From positions 1 to 64,000 of the forward strand of contig JAIXWM010000132.1 of the NCBI GenBank assembly GCA_027491255.1: a DNA stretch of 64,000 nt. Reading direction: 5' to 3'. Source of the stretch: Rubrivivax sp. Its GTDB lineage: Bacteria > Pseudomonadota > Gammaproteobacteria > Burkholderiales > Burkholderiaceae_C. Of the stretch, positions 7,347 through 20,152 are shown piece after piece (positions within the stretch are counted from its first letter, which is position 1; each line of letters starts with the position of its first letter). Made by a program: the position numbers and the translations under genes. The notes beneath the pieces were generated by a model. It was not told where the DNA came from. It ran no database searches and saw nothing but the letters and a program-made list of their open reading frames with translations.

Positions 7347-7688
7347 CCCGGCAGCAGGCTGGGGGCTCCTGGGCAGGTGGCGCCTGGGCCCGGGCCCGGC
7401 GCTGTCGTACACTTCTTCACGCATCAAGAGCACAGGCCGCCTGCCTGTCGCCAACCTGCCGTCCTGCGGCAAGGTGGCCACCGGGTCTTCCGGGATGAGG
7501 CGCCAGGGTCACGAGCCCCGGCGCAAACACAGCAGGCCAGCGGCCCTCGTTCTCGAGGGCCGTTTTGCTTTCATCGCCCGTTAATCGACAACTTGCGGGG
7601 CGATTCACAAATGCCGCTAAAGCGTCGGCTGCGCCCTGCCCGTCCGGCGCCGCCTGCGCCGCTCGCGTGGACGGTGGAGAAGACGAAG
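7347..7688 (+). ncRNA. Possible structured leader between garD and the MoxR operon
   Basis: No gene is seen. The DNA can form successive hairpins: about 7448-7485 (GCCAACCTGCCG against CGGCAAGGTGGC, two mismatches), a short CCGG/CCGG stem near 7480-7495, and a GCGCC/GGCGC stem at about 7500-7525. The intrinsic terminator at 7541-7566 then follows. After the terminator a weak promoter TTGCGG-N17-GCTAAA is possible near 7594-7622. The order hairpins-terminator-operon resembles a riboswitch or attenuator, but no known class was recognised; it may simply be the 3' end of the garD transcript. Confidence 0.3.
7541..7566 (+). terminator. Intrinsic terminator
   Basis: A perfect nine-base-pair stem (CGGCCCTCG at 7541-7549, loop TTCT, CGAGGGCCG at 7554-7562) is followed directly by TTTTGCTTTC. 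It lies about 195 bases after garD and 120 before the MoxR start, so it can end garD transcription or act as an attenuator for the downstream operon. Confidence 0.85.
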
Positions 7689-9455
7689 ATGGCGCAGAAG
7701 ACACCCGGCCCGGCAGGCGGATCGGCATCGGCATCGGCACCCGGATCGACATCCGGATCAGCACCCGGGAAGACAAGCCCGCGGGCCGCGGGCCACGAGC
7801 AGATGGCGGCACCGCAGCCCGCAGCGCCGCGGACGGCGCCGCCGCCGGCCGCACCCGTCGCGCTGCTCTCAGCCCTGGGGCTGCACGGCCTGGCGCACCT
7901 GGACGCGCCGGTGCTGGCGGCACTGGCGTCGCAGACGCCGATGCTGCTGATCGGCCCGCACGGCAGCGCCAAGAGCGCGCTGCTCGAGCGGCTGGCCGCC
8001 GCGCTGGACCTGGAGCACCGCCACTACAACGCCAGCCTGCTGTCCTTCGACGACCTGGTGGGCTTTCCGGTGCCCGAGGGCGACGGCCTGAAGTACCTGA
8101 AGACGCCCGCCACGCTGTGGGGGGCGCAGAGCGTGTTCCTCGACGAGATCAGCCGCTGCCGGCCCGAGGTGCAGAACAAACTGTTCTCCATCGTGCACGA
8201 GCGCCGCGTGCAGGGCATCGCGCTGCAGGCGCTGCGCTACCGCTGGGCGGCGATGAACCCGCCGGCCGACCCCGACGGCGCCGAAGATGCCGACGTCTAC
8301 GCCGGCTCGCTGCCGCTGGACCCGGCCCTGGCCGACCGCTTCGGCTTCGTGCTCAGCCTGCCCGCGCTGGAGGACCTGCCGCCACAGGCGCGCCGCAGCG
8401 TCATCCGCAGCGGCCTGGACGCGGCGGGGCAGGTGTCTGCCGTGCCCGCGGCGCCCGACCTGCCCGCCCTGGTGAACCGCAGCCGCGAGCGCAGCGAACT
8501 GTGCGCGCTGCTGCACGGCGACTGGATCACGGCCTACACCGCCGCGCTGGTGGTGCCGCTGCGGCAGGCCGGCCTGGGCATCTCGGGCCGGCGCGCGGCG
8601 ATGCTGGCGGCCAACATCGCGGGCGTCCACGGCGCGCGGTGCGCGCTCGGGCCTGGCGACGCGGCGGCGGGTGAGACCCCCGGCGGGAACATCACCGGCA
8701 CGACGGTCGGTCGGACCGTCACTCCGACCGTCACTCCGACCGTCACTCCGACCGTCACTCCGACCGTCACCCCGACCGTCACCCCGACCACCCCCCCTGC
8801 ATCCACCCCAACCACCACCCCCGCCACCTCGATCGCCGACTCCGCCCTGATCGCGCTGCGCCACTCGCTGCCGCACCGCGCGCAGGGCCGGCCGGTCGAG
8901 GCCGGCGTCGTCGCCACCATCCACCGCAAGGCTGTCGACGACGCCTCGCAGGCCCAGGCTGACGCCGCGCTCGCCCGCATCCTGGACGAGGCGCACCCGG
9001 TGCGGCGCGTCGGCCTGGCGCTCGCCGCGCTGGAAAAGCGCCCGGGGCAGGTGCCCCGGCACACGATGTCGATGCTGGTGGCCGACGCGCTGGCTTCGAT
9101 GGAGAAGCAGCCGCGCTGGATCCTGGCGCAGGAACTGCTGCCCCGGCTGGTGGCGCTGGACTGCGTCGATGCGCCCACGCTGGAAATGCTGGCCGAGCCC
9201 TTCACCGCCCAGGTGGCCTATGAGCAGCGGCCGAACCTGACGCACCAGCTGCCGCGCAGCCGCATCGCGCCCTTCAACGCGCTGGTGGCCACGCTCGGCG
9301 CGCTCGATACCCGCGACCCGGCGCAGGTGGCGCTGGGCAACCTGGGGGCCGCGCTCTACGCCCACGACGAGGGCGCCTGCGTGCCCGCCGCGCTGAAGCG
9401 CCAGCAGGGCGTGCTGCGGGCGCTGCTCGACGAGGGCGAGCGCCATGCACACTGA
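7689..9455 (+). CDS. MoxR-family AAA+ ATPase
   Basis: A predicted ATP-driven chaperone or remodelling enzyme, 588 residues. After a low-complexity Ser/Ala/Pro-rich N-terminus (to about residue 60) the AAA core begins: Walker A GPHGSAKSALL near residue 89, Walker B FLDEISR near 150, sensor-1 WAAMNPPAD near 188. MoxR ATPases typically pair with von Willebrand A (vWA) proteins, and one lies two genes downstream. An insertion at residues 343-366 consists of six VTPT units encoded by a 12-bp tandem repeat. The start is uncertain (ATG 7689 or 7803). The gene overlaps the next one by 11 bases. Confidence 0.88.
   Translation: MAQKTPGPAGGSASASAPGSTSGSAPGKTSPRAAGHEQMAAPQPAAPRTAPPPAAPVALLSALGLHGLAHLDAPVLAALASQTPMLLIGPHGSAKSALLERLAAALDLEHRHYNASLLSFDDLVGFPVPEGDGLKYLKTPATLWGAQSVFLDEISRCRPEVQNKLFSIVHERRVQGIALQALRYRWAAMNPPADPDGAEDADVYAGSLPLDPALADRFGFVLSLPALEDLPPQARRSVIRSGLDAAGQVSAVPAAPDLPALVNRSRERSELCALLHGDWITAYTAALVVPLRQAGLGISGRRAAMLAANIAGVHGARCALGPGDAAAGETPGGNITGTTVGRTVTPTVTPTVTPTVTPTVTPTVTPTTPPASTPTTTPATSIADSALIALRHSLPHRAQGRPVEAGVVATIHRKAVDDASQAQADAALARILDEAHPVRRVGLALAALEKRPGQVPRHTMSMLVADALASMEKQPRWILAQELLPRLVALDCVDAPTLEMLAEPFTAQVAYEQRPNLTHQLPRSRIAPFNALVATLGALDTRDPAQVALGNLGAALYAHDEGACVPAALKRQQGVLRALLDEGERHAH
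8715..8786 (+). repeat. Six tandem 12-bp repeats inside the MoxR gene
   Basis: Six units of accgtcactccg (the last two with one C change) encode Thr-Val-Thr-Pro repeats between the ATPase core and the C-terminal region. The unit is a multiple of three, so unit gain or loss keeps the frame and only changes a linker length. Confidence 0.95.
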
Positions 9456-10200
9456 AACCGCCGCGCCGGCACTGGCCAACATGAGCGCGCCGCCGCGCTC
9501 CACCGTGACGTTGCCGCGCCTGGTGTCGGGCCGCGCGGCCAGGCGCCTGGCGCTGGCGTCGATGGGGGCGACGCTGCCCGACGACGAGGCGCCACCGCTG
9601 GCCGAGCAGCGGGTGGGCCCGGGCGGCGGCGCGCTGGTGTCGAACGCGCTGTGCCTGGCCCACGTTGCGCTGCCGGCGGCGCTGGGCGCCCACCTGCGCA
9701 TGGGCCTGGGCTCGGCCCTGCTGACCGAGCCGCTCGGGCTGGCGCGCGCCCTCGTGGCCGTGGCACGCCAGTCCGGCGCCACGCGCAGCCCCCGCAACCC
9801 GGGCCGCGCCGCCCGGCTCGAACTGGACCGCGTGGCGGAGATGCCGGAAGGGGCCCTGGTGCAGGAGCTGACCGAGCGGCTCGAGTCCGTCGCCTGGCCC
9901 GCCTGGGTGCCGCGGGTGGCCTTCGTACTGCCGCGGGGCGAGGACATCGCCACGGCCGTCGACCGCCGCCGCGCGCCAGCCCCGCCGCACGGCGTCACCT
10001 GCCCCCTGCTTTCCGCGCGGCTGGTGGCGGCCGTCCGTGGGCCGGTGTTCCTGCGCGACGCGGCGCCCAGCCTGTCGGGCCTGCTCGACCTCTGGACCGG
10101 CGCCGCGCCCACGGCCCACTGGGAACTCTGGCTGCCGGTGCGCCCGGGCACCGTGATCCCCGTGCCTGCCATTGACCCCACCCCCGCTGGAGACCGCTGA
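9445..10200 (+). CDS. Unknown protein between MoxR and vWA genes
   Basis: A 251-residue protein with no recognised family. It is Ala/Arg/Leu-rich, soluble-looking, with no signal peptide or membrane segment; a conserved-looking C-terminal part includes LDLWTGAAPTAHWELWLP. It starts within the end of the MoxR gene (ATG at 9445) and its TGA stop shares bases with the ATG of the next gene (TGATG at 10198-10202). This tight coupling argues for a stoichiometric partner of the ATPase and the vWA protein, for example an adaptor. That role is inference from position only. Confidence 0.7.
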   Translation: MHTETAAPALANMSAPPRSTVTLPRLVSGRAARRLALASMGATLPDDEAPPLAEQRVGPGGGALVSNALCLAHVALPAALGAHLRMGLGSALLTEPLGLARALVAVARQSGATRSPRNPGRAARLELDRVAEMPEGALVQELTERLESVAWPAWVPRVAFVLPRGEDIATAVDRRRAPAPPHGVTCPLLSARLVAAVRGPVFLRDAAPSLSGLLDLWTGAAPTAHWELWLPVRPGTVIPVPAIDPTPAGDR

Positions 10201-11834
10201 TGGACAACGCCACTGCCCCCGCCCCCGCCGCCGCCGCCGCCGCCGCCGCCGACGCCGACGCCGCAACTGCCGCAACTGCCGCAACTGCCGCAACTGCTGC
10301 TTCTGCTGCTTCTGCTGCTGCCACCACCACCACCACCACCGCCACTGCCACTGCTACCGGCACCGACACCGGCACCGACACCAGTACCGGCAATGCCACC
10401 CCCACCGACTCTGCGACGGCAATCACCACTGCGGCCCGGCCCCTGCCTTCACCTACCGGTGCGCCGCTTCGCCCCACCGCGCCGCCCACCGAAGTCGACA
10501 GCCGCCTGCTGGCCGAGCGCGTGCGCCAGTGCGTGCCGCTGCGCCACCCCGCCTTCGGCACGCTGCTGCAGCTGCTGTCCATCGAGGCCAGCGACACCGT
10601 CCCCACCGCCGCGGTGACCGTGGGCGCGCGCTCGCGGTTGCTGCTCAACCCGGCCTTCGTGGCCGAGCGCTGCCGCACCGACGCCCACCTGGCCATGCTG
10701 GTGATGCACGAGCTCTACCACGTGTTGCTGGGCCACACCCGGCTGGTGCGCCGCGCCACGCTGGCGGCCAACTGGGCTTTCGACTGCATCATCAACGCGC
10801 AGCTCTGCCGCCTGCACCCGCGCGTGGAGTTCACCTCCTTCTTCTCGGCCGGCGCCGCGCCCGAGGGCCTGTGGAGCCTGATCGGCCCGCCGCCGGGCTG
10901 GCCGCTCGCGCCCCGCTATGCCGACGGTCGGCTGGGCCAGGTGCACCGCCACCTGTACGACGACGAAGGGGCCACCACGGCCGAGCTCTTCGCGCTGCTG
11001 GGCCCGGTGGGTGCGGCGCTCGAGGCCGACGGCGCCGATGCCGAGCGGCTGCTCGGCAACCACGCGCCCGAGCCCGAGGACGGCGACCCGCTGCACGCCG
11101 ACCCCGAGCTGATGGCCGAGGCCCGGCGCATCGTCGCCCGCTGGCCCATGGTCGACCGGCGCGGCGGCGTGGACGACGGCGGCGAGGCGTCCGCGCAGCA
11201 CGTCGGCCTGCGCCACCACCACGCCGCGCGCCAGGCCGTGCGCCGGCTGCTGCTGGCCGCGGCCTTCGGCAGCGACGGCGGGCCGCGCGTGCACCGGCCG
11301 TTGGAAGGCCCGGCTTTCACGCCGCTGCCGCAGCCAGGGGACCGTCGCGCGCAACTGCTGCGCCTGCTGGGCACGCCGCCGTTGTGGTGGCAGGGCCGGG
11401 TGCAGCAACCGGGGCACGAGCGGGCGGGCCAGGTGGCCGTCTACCTGGACGTCTCGGGCTCGATGGAGCCCTGGCTGCCGGTGCTGCTGCAGGCGCTGAC
11501 CGATGCCGCCGCGCTGGTGCGCTGGCCGCTGCTGGGCTTCTCCACCGAGGTGCACCCGGTCACCCGCGCCGACCTTGCCGCCGGCCGCTTCCAGTCCACC
11601 GGGGGCACGCACATCGCCTGCGTGGCGCAGCACCTGGCCGACTCGGGCGCGCGCCGCGCCGTGGTCATCACCGACGGCGACGTGCAGGAGATCCCCGCCG
11701 CGCTGGCCGACCGCCTGCGCCGCGCCCGGGCGCGCGTGCGCGTGGGCCTGCTGGACGGCTGCAACGGCAGCTTCTGCGCCCGCCTGGGCTGGCCGGTGGC
11801 GCGCATACCGGCACTGGACCATGCAGACCCTTGA
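10200..11834 (+). CDS. Putative metallopeptidase with C-terminal vWA domain (DUF2201-like)
   Basis: A 544-residue protein. Residues 1 to about 90 are an Ala/Thr-rich low-complexity tail built from trinucleotide repeats. A zinc-metallopeptidase-like segment carries HELYH at 170-174 with a third His at 179 (HExxHxxxxH). The C-terminus is a vWA-like domain with the metal-site motif DVSGS at 417-421, STGGTH near 466 and ITDGD near 490, so the MIDAS residues look intact. This domain order is that of the COG3864/DUF2201 proteins that sit next to MoxR ATPases. It probably works with the upstream ATPase; its target is unknown. It is followed 82 bases later by a MetK-like gene. Confidence 0.85.
   Translation: MDNATAPAPAAAAAAAADADAATAATAATAATAASAASAAATTTTTTATATATGTDTGTDTSTGNATPTDSATAITTAARPLPSPTGAPLRPTAPPTEVDSRLLAERVRQCVPLRHPAFGTLLQLLSIEASDTVPTAAVTVGARSRLLLNPAFVAERCRTDAHLAMLVMHELYHVLLGHTRLVRRATLAANWAFDCIINAQLCRLHPRVEFTSFFSAGAAPEGLWSLIGPPPGWPLAPRYADGRLGQVHRHLYDDEGATTAELFALLGPVGAALEADGADAERLLGNHAPEPEDGDPLHADPELMAEARRIVARWPMVDRRGGVDDGGEASAQHVGLRHHHAARQAVRRLLLAAAFGSDGGPRVHRPLEGPAFTPLPQPGDRRAQLLRLLGTPPLWWQGRVQQPGHERAGQVAVYLDVSGSMEPWLPVLLQALTDAAALVRWPLLGFSTEVHPVTRADLAAGRFQSTGGTHIACVAQHLADSGARRAVVITDGDVQEIPAALADRLRRARARVRVGLLDGCNGSFCARLGWPVARIPALDHADP
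10215..10415 (+). repeat. Trinucleotide repeat tract encoding the vWA protein N-terminus
   Basis: Runs of GCC, four 9-bp units gccgcaact, two units gctgcttct, a run of CAC triplets and repeated accggcacc-type units follow one another. They translate to poly-Ala, Ala-Thr and poly-Thr. All units are multiples of three, so slippage changes length but not frame. Confidence 0.9.
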
Positions 11835-11916
11835 AGGTCTGCGCCACACCACGACACCGGCCACCCCAGCCCCCAGACCGCCCCGCAAACCCGCCCCAAC
11901 GTACCAGGAAGCTCGC

Positions 11917-13101
11917 ATGTACCCCCACCGTTCCTCGACCCACTCCGCCGCCCACACCGTTGCCGAATGGGTGCTGCCCGGCCACCCGGACAAGCTGTGC
12001 GACGCGCTGGCTGACCGCATCGTCGGCGAGGTGCTGCGCGCCGACCCGCAGGCCCAGTGCGGCATCGAGGCCGCGTGCGCCTTCGACCATGTCTTCGTCA
12101 CCGGGCTGATCGGCCTGAACCGCACCACCCTGCCCGACCTCGAGCAGCGCCTGGCCGGCTGGGTGCGCGATACGTACCGCAGCGCCGGCTACGGCGGGCG
12201 CTGGGACCCGCAGCCCGAGGCGCTGCAGATCGACCTGCGCGCGCTGCGCATCGAGCAGCGCGGGCGCGAGTGGCAGGAGCTGCGGCACCTCTCCGACGAC
12301 CAGTGCATCTGCGTGGGCTACGCGCAGGCCACGCCGCGCACCGGCCATCTGCCGGGCGCGCTGTGGGCGGCGCGGCGCATCGCGCAGGCCCTGCACGCCC
12401 GGCAGCAGGCGGCGCCGCAAGGCCCGGTGGGGCCCGACGGCAAGGTCATCGTGCGCGGCGTCGAGGGCGATGACGGGGTCTTCACGCCGCAGGCCGTCTC
12501 AGTCTCGCTGCACCACGCCGAGGATGCCGACTGGCTGGAACTGCAGCGCCACGCCCAGGCCGCGCTGCGCGACGCACTGGCAGGCCCCGGGGGCCCGGAA
12601 GCCGGCGGCGACGGCACCACCCCGCTGCCCGAGCTGACCGTCAACGCCGCGGGCATGTTCCTGTGCGGCGGGCCCACCGGCGACAACGGCACCACCGGCA
12701 AGAAGCTGGTGATGGACGCCTACGGCCCCGGCGTGCCCATCGGCGGCGGCGCCTGGAGCGGCAAGGACTTTCACAAGCCCGACCGCGTGGGCGGCCTGCT
12801 GGCACGCCGGCTGGCGCTGCAGTGCGTGCAGGCCGGCATCGGACAGCGCGTGCGCGTGCAGCTCGAGTACCGCCCCAACTCGGCGCAGCCGGAGTCGGCC
12901 TCGGTCTGGGCCGACGGCCACCCGGCCGCCCTGCCGCCCGGCGCCCACCCCGTGCCCACCCTGCAAGCCGCCCACGCGATGCTGGCCGAGCTGCGCCGCG
13001 CCGACTTCGCACCGCTGGTGGAGGCCACGCTGGCGCGGTGGGGGCACCTGGGGGCGGGAGGGTGGTGGTGGGAGTGGGGTCGAAGCGGTGGGATCAAGTA
13101 G
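11917..13101 (+). CDS. Divergent S-adenosylmethionine synthetase homologue (MetK-like)
   Basis: A 394-residue relative of methionine adenosyltransferase. Landmarks in order: GHPDKLCD at about 22-29 (catalytic His23), SDDQCICVGYA matching the GAGDQG segment with its Asp kept, GGPTGDNGTTGKK at 251-263 and GGGAWSGKDFHKPDR near 273-287, which keep the ATP/phosphate-binding Asp and Lys residues. The usual ESVSEGHPDK start is replaced by EWVLPGHPDK, the glycine loop is altered and the C-terminus is Trp-rich and atypical. AGGAAG lies five bases before the ATG. Co-directional with and 82 bases after the vWA gene, it is more likely an operon-specific paralogue than the housekeeping MetK. Confidence 0.85.
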   Translation: MYPHRSSTHSAAHTVAEWVLPGHPDKLCDALADRIVGEVLRADPQAQCGIEAACAFDHVFVTGLIGLNRTTLPDLEQRLAGWVRDTYRSAGYGGRWDPQPEALQIDLRALRIEQRGREWQELRHLSDDQCICVGYAQATPRTGHLPGALWAARRIAQALHARQQAAPQGPVGPDGKVIVRGVEGDDGVFTPQAVSVSLHHAEDADWLELQRHAQAALRDALAGPGGPEAGGDGTTPLPELTVNAAGMFLCGGPTGDNGTTGKKLVMDAYGPGVPIGGGAWSGKDFHKPDRVGGLLARRLALQCVQAGIGQRVRVQLEYRPNSAQPESASVWADGHPAALPPGAHPVPTLQAAHAMLAELRRADFAPLVEATLARWGHLGAGGWWWEWGRSGGIK

Positions 13102-13141: not shown

Positions 13142-13420
13142 GTGTGGATAGAGTTCGACCCGATCAAGGATGAGCGCAACATCCGCGAGCGTGGCCTGAG
13201 CTTCGAGCGTGCAGCGGCGTTTGATTTCGCGAGCGCAACCATCGATCAGGACGACAGGAAGATCTACCCCGAGGTGCGTTATGTGGCCGTCGGCCCGCTC
13301 GACGGACGCCTGCATGTCTTGTGCTTCACACCCGTGGCGGATGGCATCCGCGTCATCAGCTTCCGCAAGGCCAACTCCCGAGAGATCAGCCACCATGAGC
13401 AAGCGCACCCCACTGACTGA
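13142..13420 (+). CDS. brnT: BrnT-family ribonuclease toxin
   Basis: Toxin of a type II toxin-antitoxin pair, 92 residues, a RelE-like ribonuclease that stops translation under stress. The start WIEFDPIKDERNIRERG, the R-Y-V-A-VGPLDGR strand and the terminal RVISFRKANSRE are family hallmarks; the last contains the basic catalytic residues. The GTG at 13142 is the only sensible start and lies about seven bases after a -10 box with no ribosome-binding site, so the mRNA may be leaderless. It overlaps brnA by 26 bases, the usual toxin-first order. Confidence 0.9.
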   Translation: MWIEFDPIKDERNIRERGLSFERAAAFDFASATIDQDDRKIYPEVRYVAVGPLDGRLHVLCFTPVADGIRVISFRKANSREISHHEQAHPTD

Positions 13421-13691
13421 TGCACAAGGCGAGGTACGCGAGTTGACGGCCGCGGACCTGGCCCGGTTCAAGCCGGCGCAGCAAGCGCTACCCGCGAAGC
13501 TCTACGAGGAGCTTGTGAATACCAATCGGCGCGCTGGCGTCCGCGGGCCGCAGAAAGCACCGCTGAAGAAGCCCACCACCATCCGCCTGGATGCAGACGT
13601 TCTGGCAGCACTGAAGGCCACTGGCGACGGCTGGCAGACACGACTCAACGAGATGGTGCGCGCGTCACTGCGGATGACCGGGCAGATCTAG
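13395..13691 (+). CDS. brnA: BrnA-family antitoxin
   Basis: Antitoxin of 98 residues that neutralises BrnT and represses the operon. The C-terminal half KKPTTIRLDADVLAALKATG followed by GWQTRLNEMVRASL is a ribbon-helix-helix-like DNA-binding region typical of BrnA/CopG-type antitoxins; the N-terminal half binds the toxin. The ATG at 13395 lies inside the end of brnT. Confidence 0.9.
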   Translation: MSKRTPLTDAQGEVRELTAADLARFKPAQQALPAKLYEELVNTNRRAGVRGPQKAPLKKPTTIRLDADVLAALKATGDGWQTRLNEMVRASLRMTGQI

Positions 13692-13882: not shown

Positions 13883-14296
13883 ATGACCCAAGGCCTGCAC
13901 TGCCCGTTCTGCACCCTGCCCGACGACAGGGTGCTGGCGCAGAACACCCACGGCAAGGTCCTCCGTGATGCGTACCCGATCTCGTCCGGGCACACGCTGG
14001 TGATCCCGCACCGTCACGTGGGCAGCTTCTTCGACCTGAGCGCCGAAGAACGCGCGTCGCTGCTCGCGCTGCTCGACGAGGCCCGCCGGTCCATCGAAGT
14101 CGAGCATCGGCCGGATGGCTACAACATCGGCATCAACGACGGTCCGTCGGCCGGGCAGACGGTGCCGCACCTCCACGTCCACCTGATACCGCGCTACGCC
14201 GGTGACCGTGCCGACCCGCGCGGCGGGGTGCGCTGGATCTTCCCGGACAAGGCCGACTACTGGAGCGCGCGTGCGCCGGCTTCCCCCGACCCGTGA
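13883..14296 (+). CDS. HIT-family nucleotide hydrolase
   Basis: A 137-residue histidine-triad protein. It begins with a Cys-x-x-Cys pair (CPFCTLPDDRV) of the zinc-binding type, has SSGHTLVIPHRHVGSF and the active-site triad HLHVHLIPR near residues 93-101. HIT enzymes cleave nucleotide phosphoramidates, adenylated amines or diadenosine polyphosphates. Its 3' end overlaps the start of the helicase fusion gene by 26 bases, so the two are translationally linked, which is unusual for a housekeeping HIT gene. Confidence 0.92.
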   Translation: MTQGLHCPFCTLPDDRVLAQNTHGKVLRDAYPISSGHTLVIPHRHVGSFFDLSAEERASLLALLDEARRSIEVEHRPDGYNIGINDGPSAGQTVPHLHVHLIPRYAGDRADPRGGVRWIFPDKADYWSARAPASPDP

Positions 14297-17200
14297 GAAG
14301 CTGATCCGGGACCGGATCCCGGCACTGGCTGCCGCCCAGGGGCGCAGCCTGCCGCTGCGCACGGCCGACCCGACCGAAATGGCGCGGCTGCTGGGGCTCA
14401 AGCTCGTCGAGGAGACGCACGAGGTGCTCGGCGCGATCGGCACGGGCTGCACGCCAGACGTGCTGGACGAACTGGCCGACCTGCAGACCGTGATCGACGA
14501 GATCGCCGCGCAGCACGGCCTGAGCCGGCAGGATGTCGAGCGGCGCGCGGCCGACAAGCGCGCTCAGCGTGGGGGCTTCGACCAGCGCCTGGTGCTGCGC
14601 GAGGCCCCGCCGGCGGCCCAGCGCCTGCATGTGGGCGGCAGCGTCACGCTGCTGGACGCGCTGAAGCGCGAGTTCGAGGCCTGCGCCGTGGCCCGCATCG
14701 CGGTGGCCTTCGTGATGAACAGCGGCCTCGATCTGATCGAGGGGCCCGCGCTGGCGGCCCTGCTGCGCGGGGCCGAAGTGCGCCTGCTGACGACCGACTA
14801 CCTGAGCGTCACCGAGCCCGAGGCGCTGGAGCGTCTGTGCCGCTGGCACGGACGGCTGCAGGCCCGCGTCTTCAGCCATGAGCGCCGCAGCTTCCATCCC
14901 AAGGCCTACCTCTTCGAGCGGGCCGACGGCACCGGCCGCGCCTTCATCGGCTCGGCCAACCTGAGCCGCATGGGTCTGGTCGAAGGCGTCGAGTGGACAT
15001 GGACGGTCCTCGATGTCGACGCTGGCCAGCCGATGCACGAGTTGTCCACGCGCTTCGAGGAGATCTTCGACGGCGATGCCGCACGCGAGCTGACGCCGGC
15101 CTGGATCCAGGATTACGCGGTGCGCCGGCTCGCCCGGGGCGTCGTGCCGGTTCTAGAGGAACCTCGCGCGCCCTACTCGCTGGAGACGGTGAAACCGCGC
15201 GAAGTGCAGCAACTGGCGCTGCGCGAACTCGACCGTCTGCGCCAGGACGGCGAATCGAAGGCGCTGGTGGTCGCGGCCACCGGTCTGGGCAAGACCTTTC
15301 TGGCGGCCTTCGACGCGCGCGACGCCGACCGGGTGCTGTTCATCGCGCACCGCGAGGAATTGCTGCATCAGGCCGAGGCCGCGTTCGAGCGCGTCTACCC
15401 GGCGCGCAGCCGCGGCTTTCTCGCCGACGGGCGCGCGGAACTCGATCGCGACGTGGTGTTCGCGTCGGTCCAAACGCTGTCGAGGCCCGAGCACCTGGCC
15501 CGCCCGGAACTGGCGCGCTTCGACCATGTCGTCGTCGACGAGTTCCACCACGCGGCCGCGGACAGCTACCGCAGGGTGCTGCAGGCGCTGTCCCCGCGCT
15601 TCCTGCTTGGCCTGACGGCCACGCCCTTTCGCGGCGACCAGCGCGACATCCTGGAGCTGTGCGACGGCAACCTCGCCTACCAGGTGAACCTGCTGGAAGC
15701 CATCGCCTTCGGCTGGCTCGTGCCCTTCCGCTACCACGGCATCGCGGACGTCGTGACCTACAGCGACGACCTGCTCACCGCGCGCAAGACCTACGACACC
15801 GTCAAGCTGACGCTGCGCTTCAACACGGCCGAACGTGCGGGCCTCGTGCTCGACCGCTACCGCGGGCATGCTTCAGCCGCCGCGCTGGGCTTCTGCGTAT
15901 CGATCGGGCATGCGGACTTCATGGCGGCCCAGTTCAACGCGGGCGGTGTGGCGGCCGCCGCCGTGCACTCCGGCCCGGGCTCGGCGGACCGGGTCGAAGC
16001 GGTGCGCCAGCTCGCCGAGGGCCGGCTGAAGGTGCTGTTCACCGTGGACCTCTTCAACGAAGGCGTGGACATCCCGGCGGTGGACCTGGTGCTCTTCCTG
16101 CGGCCCACCGAGTCGATGACGATCTTCCTCCAGCAGTTGGGGCGGGGCCTGCGGCTTCATCCGGCCAAGTCCTTCCTGACCGTGCTGGACTTCATCGGCA
16201 ACTACCGCAACGCGCACCACAAGCTGCCGCTGCTGGCCGGCCAGGACCTGTCGCAGGACCAGGATCCGGGCCGGGCGCTGAAGGCGCTGACGCGCTGGCA
16301 GGCCGAAGGCCTGCGGCCCGACGGCGTTCCCGAGGGCTGCGAGGTCGTGCTGGAGCCGGTGGCGCTGTCGGCGCTGCGGGCGTCGCTGCAAGGGTCGAGC
16401 CCGCTGAGGCAGATGGTGCTCGACGACTTGAGGGACATCGCCGAAGCGCTGGGCCGCGGGCCCACGCTGCGGGAGTGGCAACGCCAGAGCCGCTACTCGC
16501 TGAGCACCGCGCGTGCGGCGCTCGGAGTCGATCGCTGGCACCACCTGCTCGAGGCCGCGGGCCTGCTGACCGAGGAAGACCGCGCGCTCGAAGCAGCGGT
16601 GGGGGACTTCCTGCGTGAAGTCGAAACGACCGCGATGACGAAGTCCTTCAAGATGGTCGTCCTGCTGTCGCTGTGCGAAGAGACCGCGTTCAAGCGCTCG
16701 GTCAGCGGCGCCGAGCTGGTGACTGCCTTCCGGGCCTATTTCACCGAGGAGCGGCACAGAGAAGACGTGGCCGGCACCGAGGTGGAGGATGTGGCTGCGG
16801 TCGACTCGGCAGCGTTGCTGCGCTACATCGAGAAGAACCCCATCAAGGCCTGGACAGGGTCAGGCCGGGCCGCGGTCTCGCCCGTCTTCTCGTGGCAGAA
16901 GGCCGCGCCGGCACTGTCATACGTCGGCCCGCAGCCCACAGACCCGGCCCTCACCACGCCCTTTGTACGTGCCATCAAGGATCGAGCCCTGGCACGGTTG
17001 GATGCCTACTGGCAGCGCCCGGGGCCGACGCGGATGGTGTTCCCGGTCATCCCGGCAGGCAGCGCCAGCGAAGGGCAAGCATCTGCTGCAGACAGAAGGC
17101 ACTGCATCATGTTTGGCAAAGCGCGCCAGGGCCTGCCTGAAGGTTGGCACCTCGTTTCCATCAACGGCAGGAACCTTTACGGCAAGTTCGTCGCGGTCGC

Positions 17201-17360
17201 CTTGAACGTGCTGAAAGCCGCGCCGGTCGACTCGCACGAGGTGCCCAACGTGCTGACGGAGGAACTGCGCGCGCTCTTCGGCGGCCAGCTGCCGGGCAAG
17301 CCCCGCGTGCGCTTCGTCAGGCAGACCGCGGCGGCGGTCTGGGAGATCCTGGCGGCATAG
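14271..17360 (+). CDS. MazG-like / phospholipase D-like / SF2 helicase fusion protein
   Basis: A three-part protein of 1029 residues. Residues 8-105 look like a MazG/phosphoribosyl-ATP-pyrophosphohydrolase helical domain (KLIRDRIP, KLVEETHEV, DELADLQTVID). Residues ~125-290 form a PLD-type nuclease domain with FHPKAYLFE and GSANLS. From ~310 an SF2 helicase follows: Walker A ATGLGKTF (~335), DEFHH (~423), LTATPF (~448), QQLGRGLRLHP (~621). The C-terminal 350 residues are unassigned. The GTG at 14271 is chosen because GGAG lies five bases upstream and it precedes the MazG-like domain. PLD-helicase proteins are common in restriction/defence loci; a role in anti-phage defence is inference. Confidence 0.85.
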   Translation: MRRLPPTREKLIRDRIPALAAAQGRSLPLRTADPTEMARLLGLKLVEETHEVLGAIGTGCTPDVLDELADLQTVIDEIAAQHGLSRQDVERRAADKRAQRGGFDQRLVLREAPPAAQRLHVGGSVTLLDALKREFEACAVARIAVAFVMNSGLDLIEGPALAALLRGAEVRLLTTDYLSVTEPEALERLCRWHGRLQARVFSHERRSFHPKAYLFERADGTGRAFIGSANLSRMGLVEGVEWTWTVLDVDAGQPMHELSTRFEEIFDGDAARELTPAWIQDYAVRRLARGVVPVLEEPRAPYSLETVKPREVQQLALRELDRLRQDGESKALVVAATGLGKTFLAAFDARDADRVLFIAHREELLHQAEAAFERVYPARSRGFLADGRAELDRDVVFASVQTLSRPEHLARPELARFDHVVVDEFHHAAADSYRRVLQALSPRFLLGLTATPFRGDQRDILELCDGNLAYQVNLLEAIAFGWLVPFRYHGIADVVTYSDDLLTARKTYDTVKLTLRFNTAERAGLVLDRYRGHASAAALGFCVSIGHADFMAAQFNAGGVAAAAVHSGPGSADRVEAVRQLAEGRLKVLFTVDLFNEGVDIPAVDLVLFLRPTESMTIFLQQLGRGLRLHPAKSFLTVLDFIGNYRNAHHKLPLLAGQDLSQDQDPGRALKALTRWQAEGLRPDGVPEGCEVVLEPVALSALRASLQGSSPLRQMVLDDLRDIAEALGRGPTLREWQRQSRYSLSTARAALGVDRWHHLLEAAGLLTEEDRALEAAVGDFLREVETTAMTKSFKMVVLLSLCEETAFKRSVSGAELVTAFRAYFTEERHREDVAGTEVEDVAAVDSAALLRYIEKNPIKAWTGSGRAAVSPVFSWQKAAPALSYVGPQPTDPALTTPFVRAIKDRALARLDAYWQRPGPTRMVFPVIPAGSASEGQASAADRRHCIMFGKARQGLPEGWHLVSINGRNLYGKFVAVALNVLKAAPVDSHEVPNVLTEELRALFGGQLPGKPRVRFVRQTAAAVWEILAA

Positions 17361-17492
17361 GCGGTCCGTTCTCGGACCCTCGCCCGCACGGGGGGAGTGA
17401 AATGGAACTCCCGCCCAGCAAGACGCGCAGCCGCATGTCCAGGATTGACATGGATGGATGTCATGCCCGCACCCTGCGCAAGGAGTGCTCCC

Positions 17493-17753
17493 GTGGGCAT
17501 GAACGTCAATCTGACACCGCAACTCGAGGAACGGGTCAGGACCAAGGTGGCTTCGGGCCTGTACACATCTGCCAGTGAAGTGGTCAGGGAGGCGCTGCGC
17601 CTGATGGACGAACAGGATCGCCTGCGTGCGGCCAGGCTCGAGCAATTGCGCGAAGACGTTCGTCACGGTCTGGACAGCGGCCCGAGCAAGGCGTGGAACG
17701 CCGAGAAAGTCAAAGGCGAGGGTCGGGCTCGGCGCGCGCGCAAGGCGACCTAG
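17493..17753 (+). CDS. ParD/CopG-family antitoxin without partner
   Basis: A ribbon-helix-helix antitoxin of 86 residues, starting NVNLTPQLEERVRTKVASG and SASEVVREALRLMDEQ, the standard ParD DNA-binding half, followed by a basic tail. AAGGAG at 17480-17485 is seven bases from a GTG at 17493, with an ATG at 17499 also possible. ParD genes are normally followed directly by parE, but the next 200 bases encode no RelE/ParE-like protein on either strand, so it appears orphaned. It could still act on a toxin elsewhere. Confidence 0.8.
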   Translation: MGMNVNLTPQLEERVRTKVASGLYTSASEVVREALRLMDEQDRLRAARLEQLREDVRHGLDSGPSKAWNAEKVKGEGRARRARKAT

Positions 17754-18375: not shown

Positions 18376-19860
18376 CTACGCCACAAGACGGGGCACCATC
18401 TCCGGCAGCACGATATGCCGCAGCACGCGAAGAAGCTTGAGTTGCTGGGCCCGCTGCAGCGCAGCGCCTGGTGCGACTGCGTCGTCCAGGCCTGAGGCCG
18501 CCGGCTCGTCCGGGGCGTCGAGCTTCGGCATCTTGAAGCCCCTGGCCTCGGACTTCAGCGATTCCATCAAGCGCTCCTGCTGCGGGTCGTGCCGGGCATA
18601 CAGGGCATCGAAGGCCGTCAGCACCCGCGTGACCACCTCCCGGACGGTCCGGCGTGCCAGCTTTTCCGGCACGCCCAGCGTGGTCGCTGCAGCCAAGACC
18701 GCTTCAGGCGTGACCTGATCGAAGCGTGCGACCTCGGGCGACAGCCGCACGGCCAGAGGCACCGCCGGCCAGCGCGCCCGCTCGTCCGCAAAGGCCCGCG
18801 TGTGATAGACCCCCGTGGCCAGCAGGTCGTAGTGCGGCGCGAGGTCCACGCGGCCCGGTGTGACGAGGAAGGAAAGGTTCTTCAGGTGGCAGTCGTCATT
18901 GGCCACCAGCAGGTTGAACACCAGCCACCGGAACAGGCGCACGGGAGTGGTCAGCTGGTCCTCGCAGGCCTGAGACAGCTCGCGCAGCACCTGCACGCCC
19001 GCGCCGTACTTGAACAACCGCGACTTGTTGAGCAATTGGCACGCGTCGATGACGTGTACCCGCTGCACCGCCGGGGGCCCGGCAGCCGTCTCGGGTGCGA
19101 AGTCCGCACGGTCGAACTGGCGGTCGAAACGCTCGACGACATACACCGGCTGCGGCACCTGCAGCAGTTGCACCAGCGGCGTGGCCAGCTTCGCGGCGGT
19201 GGCCAGCCGCATCGTCAGCCACTCCAGGTAGGCCGACGCCGGGTAGCTGTCGCTGTCAGGATGGTCAGGCTTGAGAATGTGGGTCGAGGGCGTGGAGCCC
19301 ACCGGCTCATAGACGTCCGGCCCCTTGAGCACCGCCGGCATCTTGTGCTGGGCGCCCGCCAGGGACATCCGCTTCGGGGCATCGCGCGTGAGCGGCGTGC
19401 GCGGCAGCCCCTGGATGCGCCGGCTCAGCGCCTCGTAGGGCAAAGGCTGCAGGTCGGGGCGGCTCTGAGGCGCCTCGCCCGGTGGCAGCAAGGTGAGCGA
19501 GCCCGCCGACTCCGCGCCCAGGTACTGCAAGAGCGCAAAAGCGTCATCATGGCTGCGCAGCTGCGCGTCCGCCGCGATGATCTCGCGCAGCCTCTCCTCG
19601 GGCAGCAGGTTGTCGAAGTACCACTGCACCGGGCGCAGCGTCGCGCCGTCGCGATGCACCGGCTGGCTGCGGGGCAGTGCCGGCGACAGGTCGAAACTGT
19701 CAGGCCGGTTTGCCCACTGCGGCAGGTACACGAGGCTCCACAGGTCGTTGGCCTCGTGCAGGGTGCCCAGCTGCACCTGGTTGATGAAAATGTCCAGCCG
19801 CCGGCCCTCCCGGGGCAGCGCGGGTGGCTCGACAAGCACCTGGGGTGTAACTTCAGGCAC
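18376..19860 (-). CDS. hipA: HipA-family serine/threonine kinase toxin
   Basis: Toxin kinase of a HipBA-type pair, 494 residues. HipA proteins phosphorylate targets such as glutamyl-tRNA synthetase and induce dormancy. Visible features: an N-terminal HipA domain (IFINQVQLGTLHE), MSLAGAQHKMP corresponding to the SxAGAQxK nucleotide-binding loop, catalytic NLLVANDDCHLKNLS and the metal-binding APHYDLLA. The usual GNxDxHxKN is here ANDDCHLKN, with Asp, His, Lys and Asn kept. The C-terminus is longer than in E. coli HipA (about 440). It overlaps hipB by eight bases. Confidence 0.9.
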   Translation of the reverse strand: MPEVTPQVLVEPPALPREGRRLDIFINQVQLGTLHEANDLWSLVYLPQWANRPDSFDLSPALPRSQPVHRDGATLRPVQWYFDNLLPEERLREIIAADAQLRSHDDAFALLQYLGAESAGSLTLLPPGEAPQSRPDLQPLPYEALSRRIQGLPRTPLTRDAPKRMSLAGAQHKMPAVLKGPDVYEPVGSTPSTHILKPDHPDSDSYPASAYLEWLTMRLATAAKLATPLVQLLQVPQPVYVVERFDRQFDRADFAPETAAGPPAVQRVHVIDACQLLNKSRLFKYGAGVQVLRELSQACEDQLTTPVRLFRWLVFNLLVANDDCHLKNLSFLVTPGRVDLAPHYDLLATGVYHTRAFADERARWPAVPLAVRLSPEVARFDQVTPEAVLAAATTLGVPEKLARRTVREVVTRVLTAFDALYARHDPQQERLMESLKSEARGFKMPKLDAPDEPAASGLDDAVAPGAALQRAQQLKLLRVLRHIVLPEMVPRLVA

Positions 19861-20152
19861 CCTGGCTCCCCTTCGAAGACATCGCGCGACGTGCCCTGGC
19901 CTTGGACAGCTCCAGCTGGTAGGCCGCGATGTCAGCCGGCGGCAGTTCCAGGCCCACCTTGACGCCCAGACGCTGCAGCAACTGCAGCACCTTGCCCATC
20001 TGCACGGTCGACTTGCCGTTTTCCAGGTCGGTCATGAACTGCTTGCTCACCCCTGCGGCCATGGCGAAGTCGTCGATGCGGATGCCCGCGCGCTTGCGCA
20101 GCGTTCGAATCGCAATACCGGCCTCGAGTACAGACGTGAGGGAGATGCTCAT
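19853..20152 (-). CDS. hipB: HipB-family antitoxin and repressor
   Basis: A 99-residue XRE-type DNA-binding protein. The helix-turn-helix runs from about residue 14 to 62 (IRTLRKRAGIRIDDFAMAAG, VSKQFMTDLENGK, VQMGKVLQLLQRLG), very close to HipB family members. It binds HipA and represses its own promoter. First gene of the pair; three matching palindromes sit directly upstream, one of which also provides the Shine-Dalgarno bases AGGAA. Confidence 0.92.
   Translation of the reverse strand: MSISLTSVLEAGIAIRTLRKRAGIRIDDFAMAAGVSKQFMTDLENGKSTVQMGKVLQLLQRLGVKVGLELPPADIAAYQLELSKARARRAMSSKGSQGA

Follow-up and report, generated by a model that had tools for sequence, protein, structure and literature searches.

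A conserved four-gene operon that joins a MoxR-vWA pair to a divergent MetK relative behind two predicted SAM riboswitches

Pairs formed by a MoxR-type AAA+ ATPase and a vWA protein, such as CoxD/CoxE, NorQ/NorD, CbbQ/CbbO and RavA/ViaA, are activases that remodel or mature partner enzymes; those of the CoxD/E type mature metalloenzymes. Riboswitches that sense S-adenosylmethionine (SAM) often control SAM synthesis genes, and the SAM-I/IV and SAM-II classes generally turn genes off when SAM binds. Here we describe a locus at which these two themes meet: an operon encoding a MoxR ATPase, a protein without known family (the middle protein), a vWA protein and a relative of the SAM synthetase MetK, in a stretch of 64,000 nucleotides from Rubrivivax sp. 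(GenBank assembly GCA_027491255.1, contig JAIXWM010000132.1, positions 1 to 64,000 of the forward strand; hereafter the window). We tentatively read it, with confidence a little short of even, as an accessory operon induced by SAM depletion that would supply both a remodelled enzyme for adenosyl transfer and the MoxR-vWA activase that serves it. Passages of PMC7159879 treat MoxR-vWA combinations as chaperone pairs, naming CoxD-CoxE and RavA-ViaA, and record such pairs in conflict systems, for which a ternary type is described. Passages of PMC9481103 set out a 'bi-mechanism' tandem, in which a SAM-I/IV riboswitch with a terminator acts on transcription and a SAM-II riboswitch near the start acts on translation, and count two cases of that order.

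The four genes lie head to tail on the forward strand of the window, spanning positions 7689-13101 in the reading-frame list (Table 1). moxR overlaps the middle gene by 11 bases, the middle and vWA genes meet at TGATG, and 82 bases separate the vWA gene from the MetK-like gene, whose ATG is preceded by AGGA. A preliminary description, made from the letters of this DNA, had proposed just such a tight operon, and both the coordinates and the recurrence of the layout at other loci bear it out. We found ten loci with the leader: nine, the window included, are close, and the tenth belongs to another family of the order and is about 38% identical. The four genes also co-occur outside the source strain, so this refuting condition of the preliminary description does not hold: all stand in order at seven of the ten loci (window, L010, L011, L015, L016, L022 and L087), down to about 38% identity. 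In the most distant genome, G270, the order is the same, and identity to the window is 37% for MoxR, 37.5% for the vWA protein and 38.8% for the MetK-like protein. Among the remaining loci, L023 is decayed, and L009 and L019 end at contig edges within the vWA gene; the genomes of the latter two carry the MetK-like gene on other contigs. Chance clustering of the four genes is ruled out because their order recurs, and the cluster is a real, conserved four-gene unit.

Table 1. Coordinates of the operon and its leader in the window.
Feature	Position	Strand	Basis
SAM-I/IV riboswitch aptamer (RF01725)	7416-7540	+	Rfam, 44.1 bits
Intrinsic-terminator-like hairpin, GGCCCTCG..CGAGGGCC then four T, GC-rich	7542-7566	+	Read from sequence
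SAM-II riboswitch aptamer, divergent	7572-7633	+	Lineage covariance model R1, 35.5 bits
Putative expression platform, a GC-rich hairpin that would cover the ribosome-binding site of moxR	7634-7688	+	Minimum-energy folds
moxR, MoxR-type AAA+ ATPase, 588 amino acids	7689-9455	+	AAA_5 over cut-off; Walker A/B
Middle protein, 251 amino acids, without known family	9445-10200	+	No library match
DUF2201_N (HExxH) and VWA_CoxE protein, 544 amino acids	10200-11834	+	Both Pfam cut-offs passed; motifs
MetK-like protein, 394 amino acids, altered methionine site	11917-13101	+	Pfam N and C domains; residue census; isolated clade

Both leader riboswitches had been missed in the first reading of the window. 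Directly upstream of the operon, the SAM-I/IV aptamer exceeds its Rfam gathering score of 41.1 bits (E = 7.7e-06 in a 701-base stretch). Such an aptamer fronts the operon at all ten loci and is over the Rfam cut-off at nine of them, with L016 at 39.7 bits. A terminator-like hairpin is common to the nine close leaders, which were those covered by our pattern check; by eye, the G270 leader also shows one, AGCCCTCC..GGAGGGCT, whose T run is poorer. The second element is a divergent SAM-II aptamer. Among 4227 Rfam families, SAM-II (SAM_alpha) is the best match for it, yet well under the cut-off (9.4 bits in the window and 17.7 in L010, against a gathering score of 36). We therefore rely on R1, a covariance model of the lineage: a survey of 120 genomes of the order gave SAM-II matches at E 1e-4 or better in 44, and R1 was made from 28 of 30 fetched SAM-II loci, of which 21 pass the Rfam cut-off and 7 do not. 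The two omitted share 72 of 77 and 73 of 77 bases with one that was kept. No operon leader is among the 28, and one of them is the SAM-II RNA found in the genome of the window. Run without filters, R1 gives the window element an E value of 1.5e-08, the next best score in the 64 kilobases (kb) being 6.7 bits, and its scores for the remaining nine leaders range from 34.2 to 48.7 bits; the element is thus present in all ten leaders.

The leader element matches the SAM-II features of the order, namely CUUGC, GCUAAA and helix P1. By eye, P1 pairing is kept across differing sequences (AUCGCC/GGCGAU in the window, GCGCC/GGCGC in most of the 28, GCCGCC/GGCGGC in G270). The SAM-II RNA of the same genome, which scores 38.8 bits and precedes a gene that looks by eye like MetX, shares the core UUCACAAAUGCCGCUAAA with the leader element. 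In G270, SAM-I/IV reaches 66.3 bits and a SAM-II element of 41.1 bits adjoins moxR; between them lies a possible third aptamer, SAM-II- or SAM-V-like, with 24.4 bits for Rfam SAM-V and 20.1 for Rfam SAM-II (both below cut-off) and 10.6 bits over part of R1. Two aptamers upstream of the operon are thus a well-supported prediction, and the SAM-related theme of the preliminary description now has a strong link. The leaders resemble the tandems in the passages of PMC9481103, where the controlled genes are left unnamed, in their order and in the same two aptamer classes; they differ in occurring at ten loci, all before the present operon, one with a possible third aptamer. The claim that no such system had been described consequently holds for the gene set, which is undescribed within the literature searched (we found no open-licence paper on a MoxR/vWA(/DUF2201)/MetK set), and fails for the SAM-I/IV then SAM-II order, which is already in print.

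Compared with MetK (TIGR01034; PF00438/PF02772/PF02773), the fourth protein is alike in its N and C domains and in its ATP, tripolyphosphate and metal residues, and differs in its low TIGR01034 score, the loss of Glu55, Gln98 and Ile302, its own clade and its MoxR-vWA operon. The Pfam S-AdoMet_synt C and N domains score 71.4 (cut-off 25) and 47.9 bits (33.1), the central domain misses its cut-off of 29 at 18.6, and TIGR01034 gives 138.5 bits, below the equivalog cut-off of 309.4. Tryptophans are present in the tail, as had been remarked. A canonical metK occurs elsewhere in all ten operon genomes, which agrees with the earlier view that the protein is a dedicated paralogue, not the sole MetK. 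Its divergence is likewise borne out: a maximum likelihood tree of 41 proteins groups the nine MetK-like ones in a single clade (support 100/100), which is separated by about six changes per column from the canonical MetKs (23) and the phage MetKs (9), with lengths and the placement of G270 within the group being rough on such long branches.

A residue census of the same proteins, our sharpest result, locates the change. All nine MetK-like proteins keep E8, H14, D16, E42, D118, D163, K165, F230, D238, K245, K265, K269 and D271 of the ATP, tripolyphosphate and metal sites. Arg244 is replaced by Lys in all nine and kept in the 23 canonical and nine phage enzymes, and Lys17 by Arg in one of the nine. 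Three positions kept in all 32 others are altered throughout: Glu55 gives way to Leu in eight proteins and to Arg in the ninth, none of the nine has Gln98, and Ile302, which we take to be a methionine-site residue, has become Pro in nine of nine. The Glu55 column is free of gaps from Glu42. In the methionine adenosyltransferase (MAT) of E. coli, Glu55, Gln98 and Asp238 hold methionine, and Gln98 and Lys269 its carboxylate, according to passages of PMC1282579 and PMC3853416; the human equivalents Glu70, Gln113 and Asp258 do likewise in passages of PMC6850014 and PMC7271947. Tripolyphosphatase activity is separable from SAM formation, as an excerpt of PMC6850014 reports. These residues suggest, at the level of a possibility, that the MetK-like protein has a new substrate.

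A near comparison is with phage MetKs: both are MetK paralogues on accessory DNA, and the MetK-like protein scores 130.5 bits with the phage MetK profile phrog_1569. Unlike the MetK-like proteins, all nine phage enzymes keep the methionine residues. A phage origin of the MetK-like gene is unsupported because the phage MetKs fall on the canonical side of the tree. Five annotated phage MetK neighbourhoods, in which many genes are hypothetical, list no MoxR or vWA gene, and three of them list DNA methyltransferases.

The first and third proteins form a recognizable couple. MoxR matches Pfam AAA_5 (41.4 bits, cut-off 22) and has the motifs GPHGSAKS and VFLDEI in the window; Walker A and B are kept in the MoxR proteins compared (four scanned, eight aligned). 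The vWA protein matches DUF2201_N (27.5 bits, cut-off 23.2) and VWA_CoxE (28.7 bits, cut-off 26.4) and has HELYHVLLGH and DVSGSM in the window, and the HExxH..GH and DxSGS motifs recur in all seven vWA proteins inspected, G270 included. A MoxR AAA+ ATPase adjoining a VWA_CoxE protein in one operon is the CoxD/CoxE-like arrangement. The likeness to the activase pairs lies in an AAA_5 MoxR beside a VWA_CoxE protein with a metal ion-dependent adhesion site (MIDAS) motif; the operon adds an HExxH DUF2201_N domain, a third protein without family, a MetK partner and SAM riboswitches. For the middle protein, searches of Pfam, NCBIfam, PADLOC, PHROGs and PDB sequences gave no match, and predicted structures were too poor for use (mean predicted local distance difference test score, pLDDT, 42.8 for the middle protein and 55.6 for the MetK-like protein). 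TVTP low-complexity repeats in the moxR gene (window 8700-8830) are absent from seven relatives aligned; the Ala/Thr-rich beginning of the vWA gene (10210-10430) has no counterpart in three aligned relatives.

The VWA_CoxE and DUF2201_N matches also suit an explanation in which the MoxR, middle and vWA proteins mature or metal-load some other enzyme, as CoxD/E-type pairs do for metalloenzymes, and the MetK-like protein would merely supply an adenosyl compound. We regard this as improbable: no further enzyme gene recurs at most loci, a weak argument drawn from flanks read by eye at seven loci and G270 with Pfam on few genes. Nudix and phosphatase genes were set aside as partners, being beside L016 (by eye) and L017 (Pfam) only, and so were HIT genes, which Pfam places beside the window copy and L021 only.

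In the reading we prefer, the SAM-I/IV riboswitch would terminate transcription at the hairpin while SAM is plentiful, and the SAM-II riboswitch would keep escaped transcripts untranslated; with SAM low, all four proteins would be produced. The operon would be silent until SAM falls because both classes generally shut off with SAM, and we infer this OFF logic from the known behaviour of the classes. The MoxR ATPase and the HExxH/vWA protein would act as a dedicated activase or remodeller, like NorQ/NorD, CoxD/CoxE and CbbQ/CbbO, with the middle protein as its likely adaptor. The gene neighbourhood points to the MetK-like protein as the simplest client. This protein would retain adenosyl transfer from ATP and, to judge by its residues, would have lost the usual hold on methionine. 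Its acceptor would most likely be methionine-like or methionine-containing rather than free methionine, or methionine would be bound by other residues, and the reaction would be expected to yield an adenosyl compound in place of SAM or in addition to it. A stricter version, a MetK-fold enzyme that adenosylates an acceptor other than free methionine, is driven by MoxR-vWA and is made only when SAM is scarce, seems to us rather unlikely; its acceptors might be, for example, methionine that is N-blocked or peptide-bound, or a thioether lacking the amino group. A modified product had been floated in the preliminary description; it gains weight from the changed methionine site, and the residues fall short of proving a new substrate. 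Taken as a whole, that interpretation is partly supported.

Several observations weigh against the SAM-depletion reading. The window SAM-II element falls far short of the Rfam cut-off. The ribosome-site hairpin is a GC-rich stretch folded without shuffle control, in which at least 9 of the 13 bases from -17 to -5 before moxR are paired in nine of the ten leaders (9 in the window) in minimum-energy folds, and it is weak in G270, with 5. Nothing direct ties MoxR and the vWA protein to the MetK-like protein. At L023, the leader, middle and MetK-like genes are kept, most of moxR is lost and the vWA gene has a stop; the MetK-like gene is intact despite this damage, so the MetK-like protein may work without MoxR and the vWA protein, or the locus may be dying. 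The second gene of G270 stands at the same position (about 215 amino acids, against 251 for the middle protein) without significant similarity to it: homology was rejected at an hhalign probability of 0.2% and a shuffle z of at most 0.8 against six middle proteins. Finally, Asp238 and Lys269 of the methionine site are kept, and the Gln98 column borders a gapped loop, where the alignment is less sure than at Glu55. A new substrate is not proved by the losses, because archaeal MATs lack Glu55 and Gln98 and still bind methionine (in passages of PMC3853416) and human MAT2A Gln113Ala, equivalent to Gln98, retains about 76% activity (in an excerpt of PMC6850014).

Some of these same facts favour the chief rival, a plain backup SAM synthetase with a rebuilt pocket under ordinary SAM feedback, whose folding or assembly MoxR-vWA would aid. 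Its catalytic residues are kept, with Asp238 and Lys269 among them, and the archaeal enzymes show that Glu55 and Gln98 can be dispensed with (PMC3853416, same passages). A search of 300 genomes of the order gave 26 SAM-I/IV matches in 21 genomes: five before the operon, three before canonical metK, seven before DUF3293-like genes and eleven without assignment. The three metK cases (L077, L078 and L081, directly before the gene in three genomes) concern the usual feedback target, which speaks for our preferred reading and also for a backup synthetase, SAM riboswitches being common on SAM synthesis genes. Against the latter, three methionine-site residues are lost in every MetK-like protein and kept in all 32 others, the nine phage enzymes included; about six changes per column are more than expected for a redundant enzyme; and every operon genome has its canonical metK. 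We judge a backup role somewhat unlikely.

The operon is accessory, gained and lost among genomes. Real matches to the middle protein were found in 4 of 300 genomes of the order (G060, G104 and G242 besides its own), 2 of 81 of the genus (its own and G375) and 1 of 369 of the class (its own). A match in G080 (E = 3.0e-4) was dropped: it is a shadow frame, and the 20 kb fetched there gave no match to the MoxR, vWA or MetK-like proteins. A scan of 84,980 species genomes gave no match with the window's middle protein alone; with the middle-protein alignment, eight loci came up, of which L016, L019, L022 and L023 were new. A profile including G270, run on 399 genomes of the order at E 1e-50, gave eight matches: five with the operon (split over two contigs in G104), two truncated where the contig begins, and a decayed one in G102. 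The G102 remnant (L137, 7711-8445) has a vWA-like YLDVSGS stub in frame before a MetK-like fragment, with no SAM-II by R1 (best 6.6 bits) and no SAM-I/IV in the order-wide search. L011 carries an additional fragment of the end of the MetK-like gene. Across 398 genomes of the phylum, a profile of the MetK-like protein scored the window gene at 780 bits and anything else at no more than 152; the next best matches were canonical MetKs, and no new operon emerged. Since every one of the eight named records comes from a metagenome assembly or an uncultured organism, certain taxon labels and contig ends are unreliable; the record titles of L016 (planctomycete) and L019 (Bordetella parapertussis) look doubtful, perhaps through binning or label errors.

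This rare and patchy spread is consistent with a SAM-loss alarm, a response carried by mobile islands to phage SAM-degrading enzymes or to rivals with a protective or growth-halting product. The preliminary description had likewise raised a conflict role, for which the evidence is circumstantial: toxin-antitoxin neighbours (BrnTA at the window, BrnA at G104, BrnT at L023) and the MoxR-vWA pairs of conflict systems in passages of PMC7159879. The operon shares MoxR, vWA and a third protein with the ternary systems of those passages; its MoxR narrowly misses the bpMoxR conflict-family cut-off (26.5 against 27 bits; 22.3 in G270), and its four proteins have no Pfam match to the other parts of these systems. 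That role was not upheld. PADLOC finds no known anti-phage system among the four proteins, its matches being two weak ones to MoxR at E 0.017. We found no match to the middle protein in viral contigs (where the MetK-like profile gave two distant MetKs only, at 30-35%), none to the vWA protein in phage records, and none to the operon in plasmids at high identity. Toxin-antitoxin genes, moreover, are common island passengers. An alarm therefore appears quite improbable.

Downstream of the operon, the window holds the toxin-antitoxin genes BrnT/BrnA (13142-13691), ParD (17397-17753) and HipA/HTH (18376-20152), and BrnT or BrnA also lies beside the operon in L023 and G104. At 13883-17360 lie a HIT gene and, after it, a 1052-amino-acid frame with PLD-like, ResIII helicase and weak MazG matches. 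DUF3293, on which we found no open-licence paper, also occurs behind SAM riboswitches. On contig G000:C33 (L026, 1925-2650), a second SAM-I/IV (52.4 bits) and a terminator-like hairpin precede a DUF3293 gene, and a weak SAM-II-like element (R1 9.4 bits, E = 0.49) precedes the next small gene. On the same contig (L026, 3762-10970), another MoxR and DUF2201 pair is preceded on its own strand by a gene for a 1039-amino-acid protein with a reverse-transcriptase domain. At L060 (G104:C229), a DUF3293 module with SAM-I/IV and SAM-II (R1 27.1 bits) lies just beyond the MetK-like gene and convergent to it, with a BrnA gene in between.

Many MoxR-vWA pairs have neither a known client nor a known trigger. 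This operon offers candidates for both: its two RNA sensors suggest low SAM as the trigger, and its gene content suggests a candidate client. If the stricter version given above is true, this would be, to our knowledge, the first MoxR-vWA activase with a client from the SAM synthetase family, and there would be a new adenosyl product. Adenosyl chemistry beyond the known SAM pathway would be indicated by a MetK relative whose ATP site is kept and whose methionine site is no longer the usual one.

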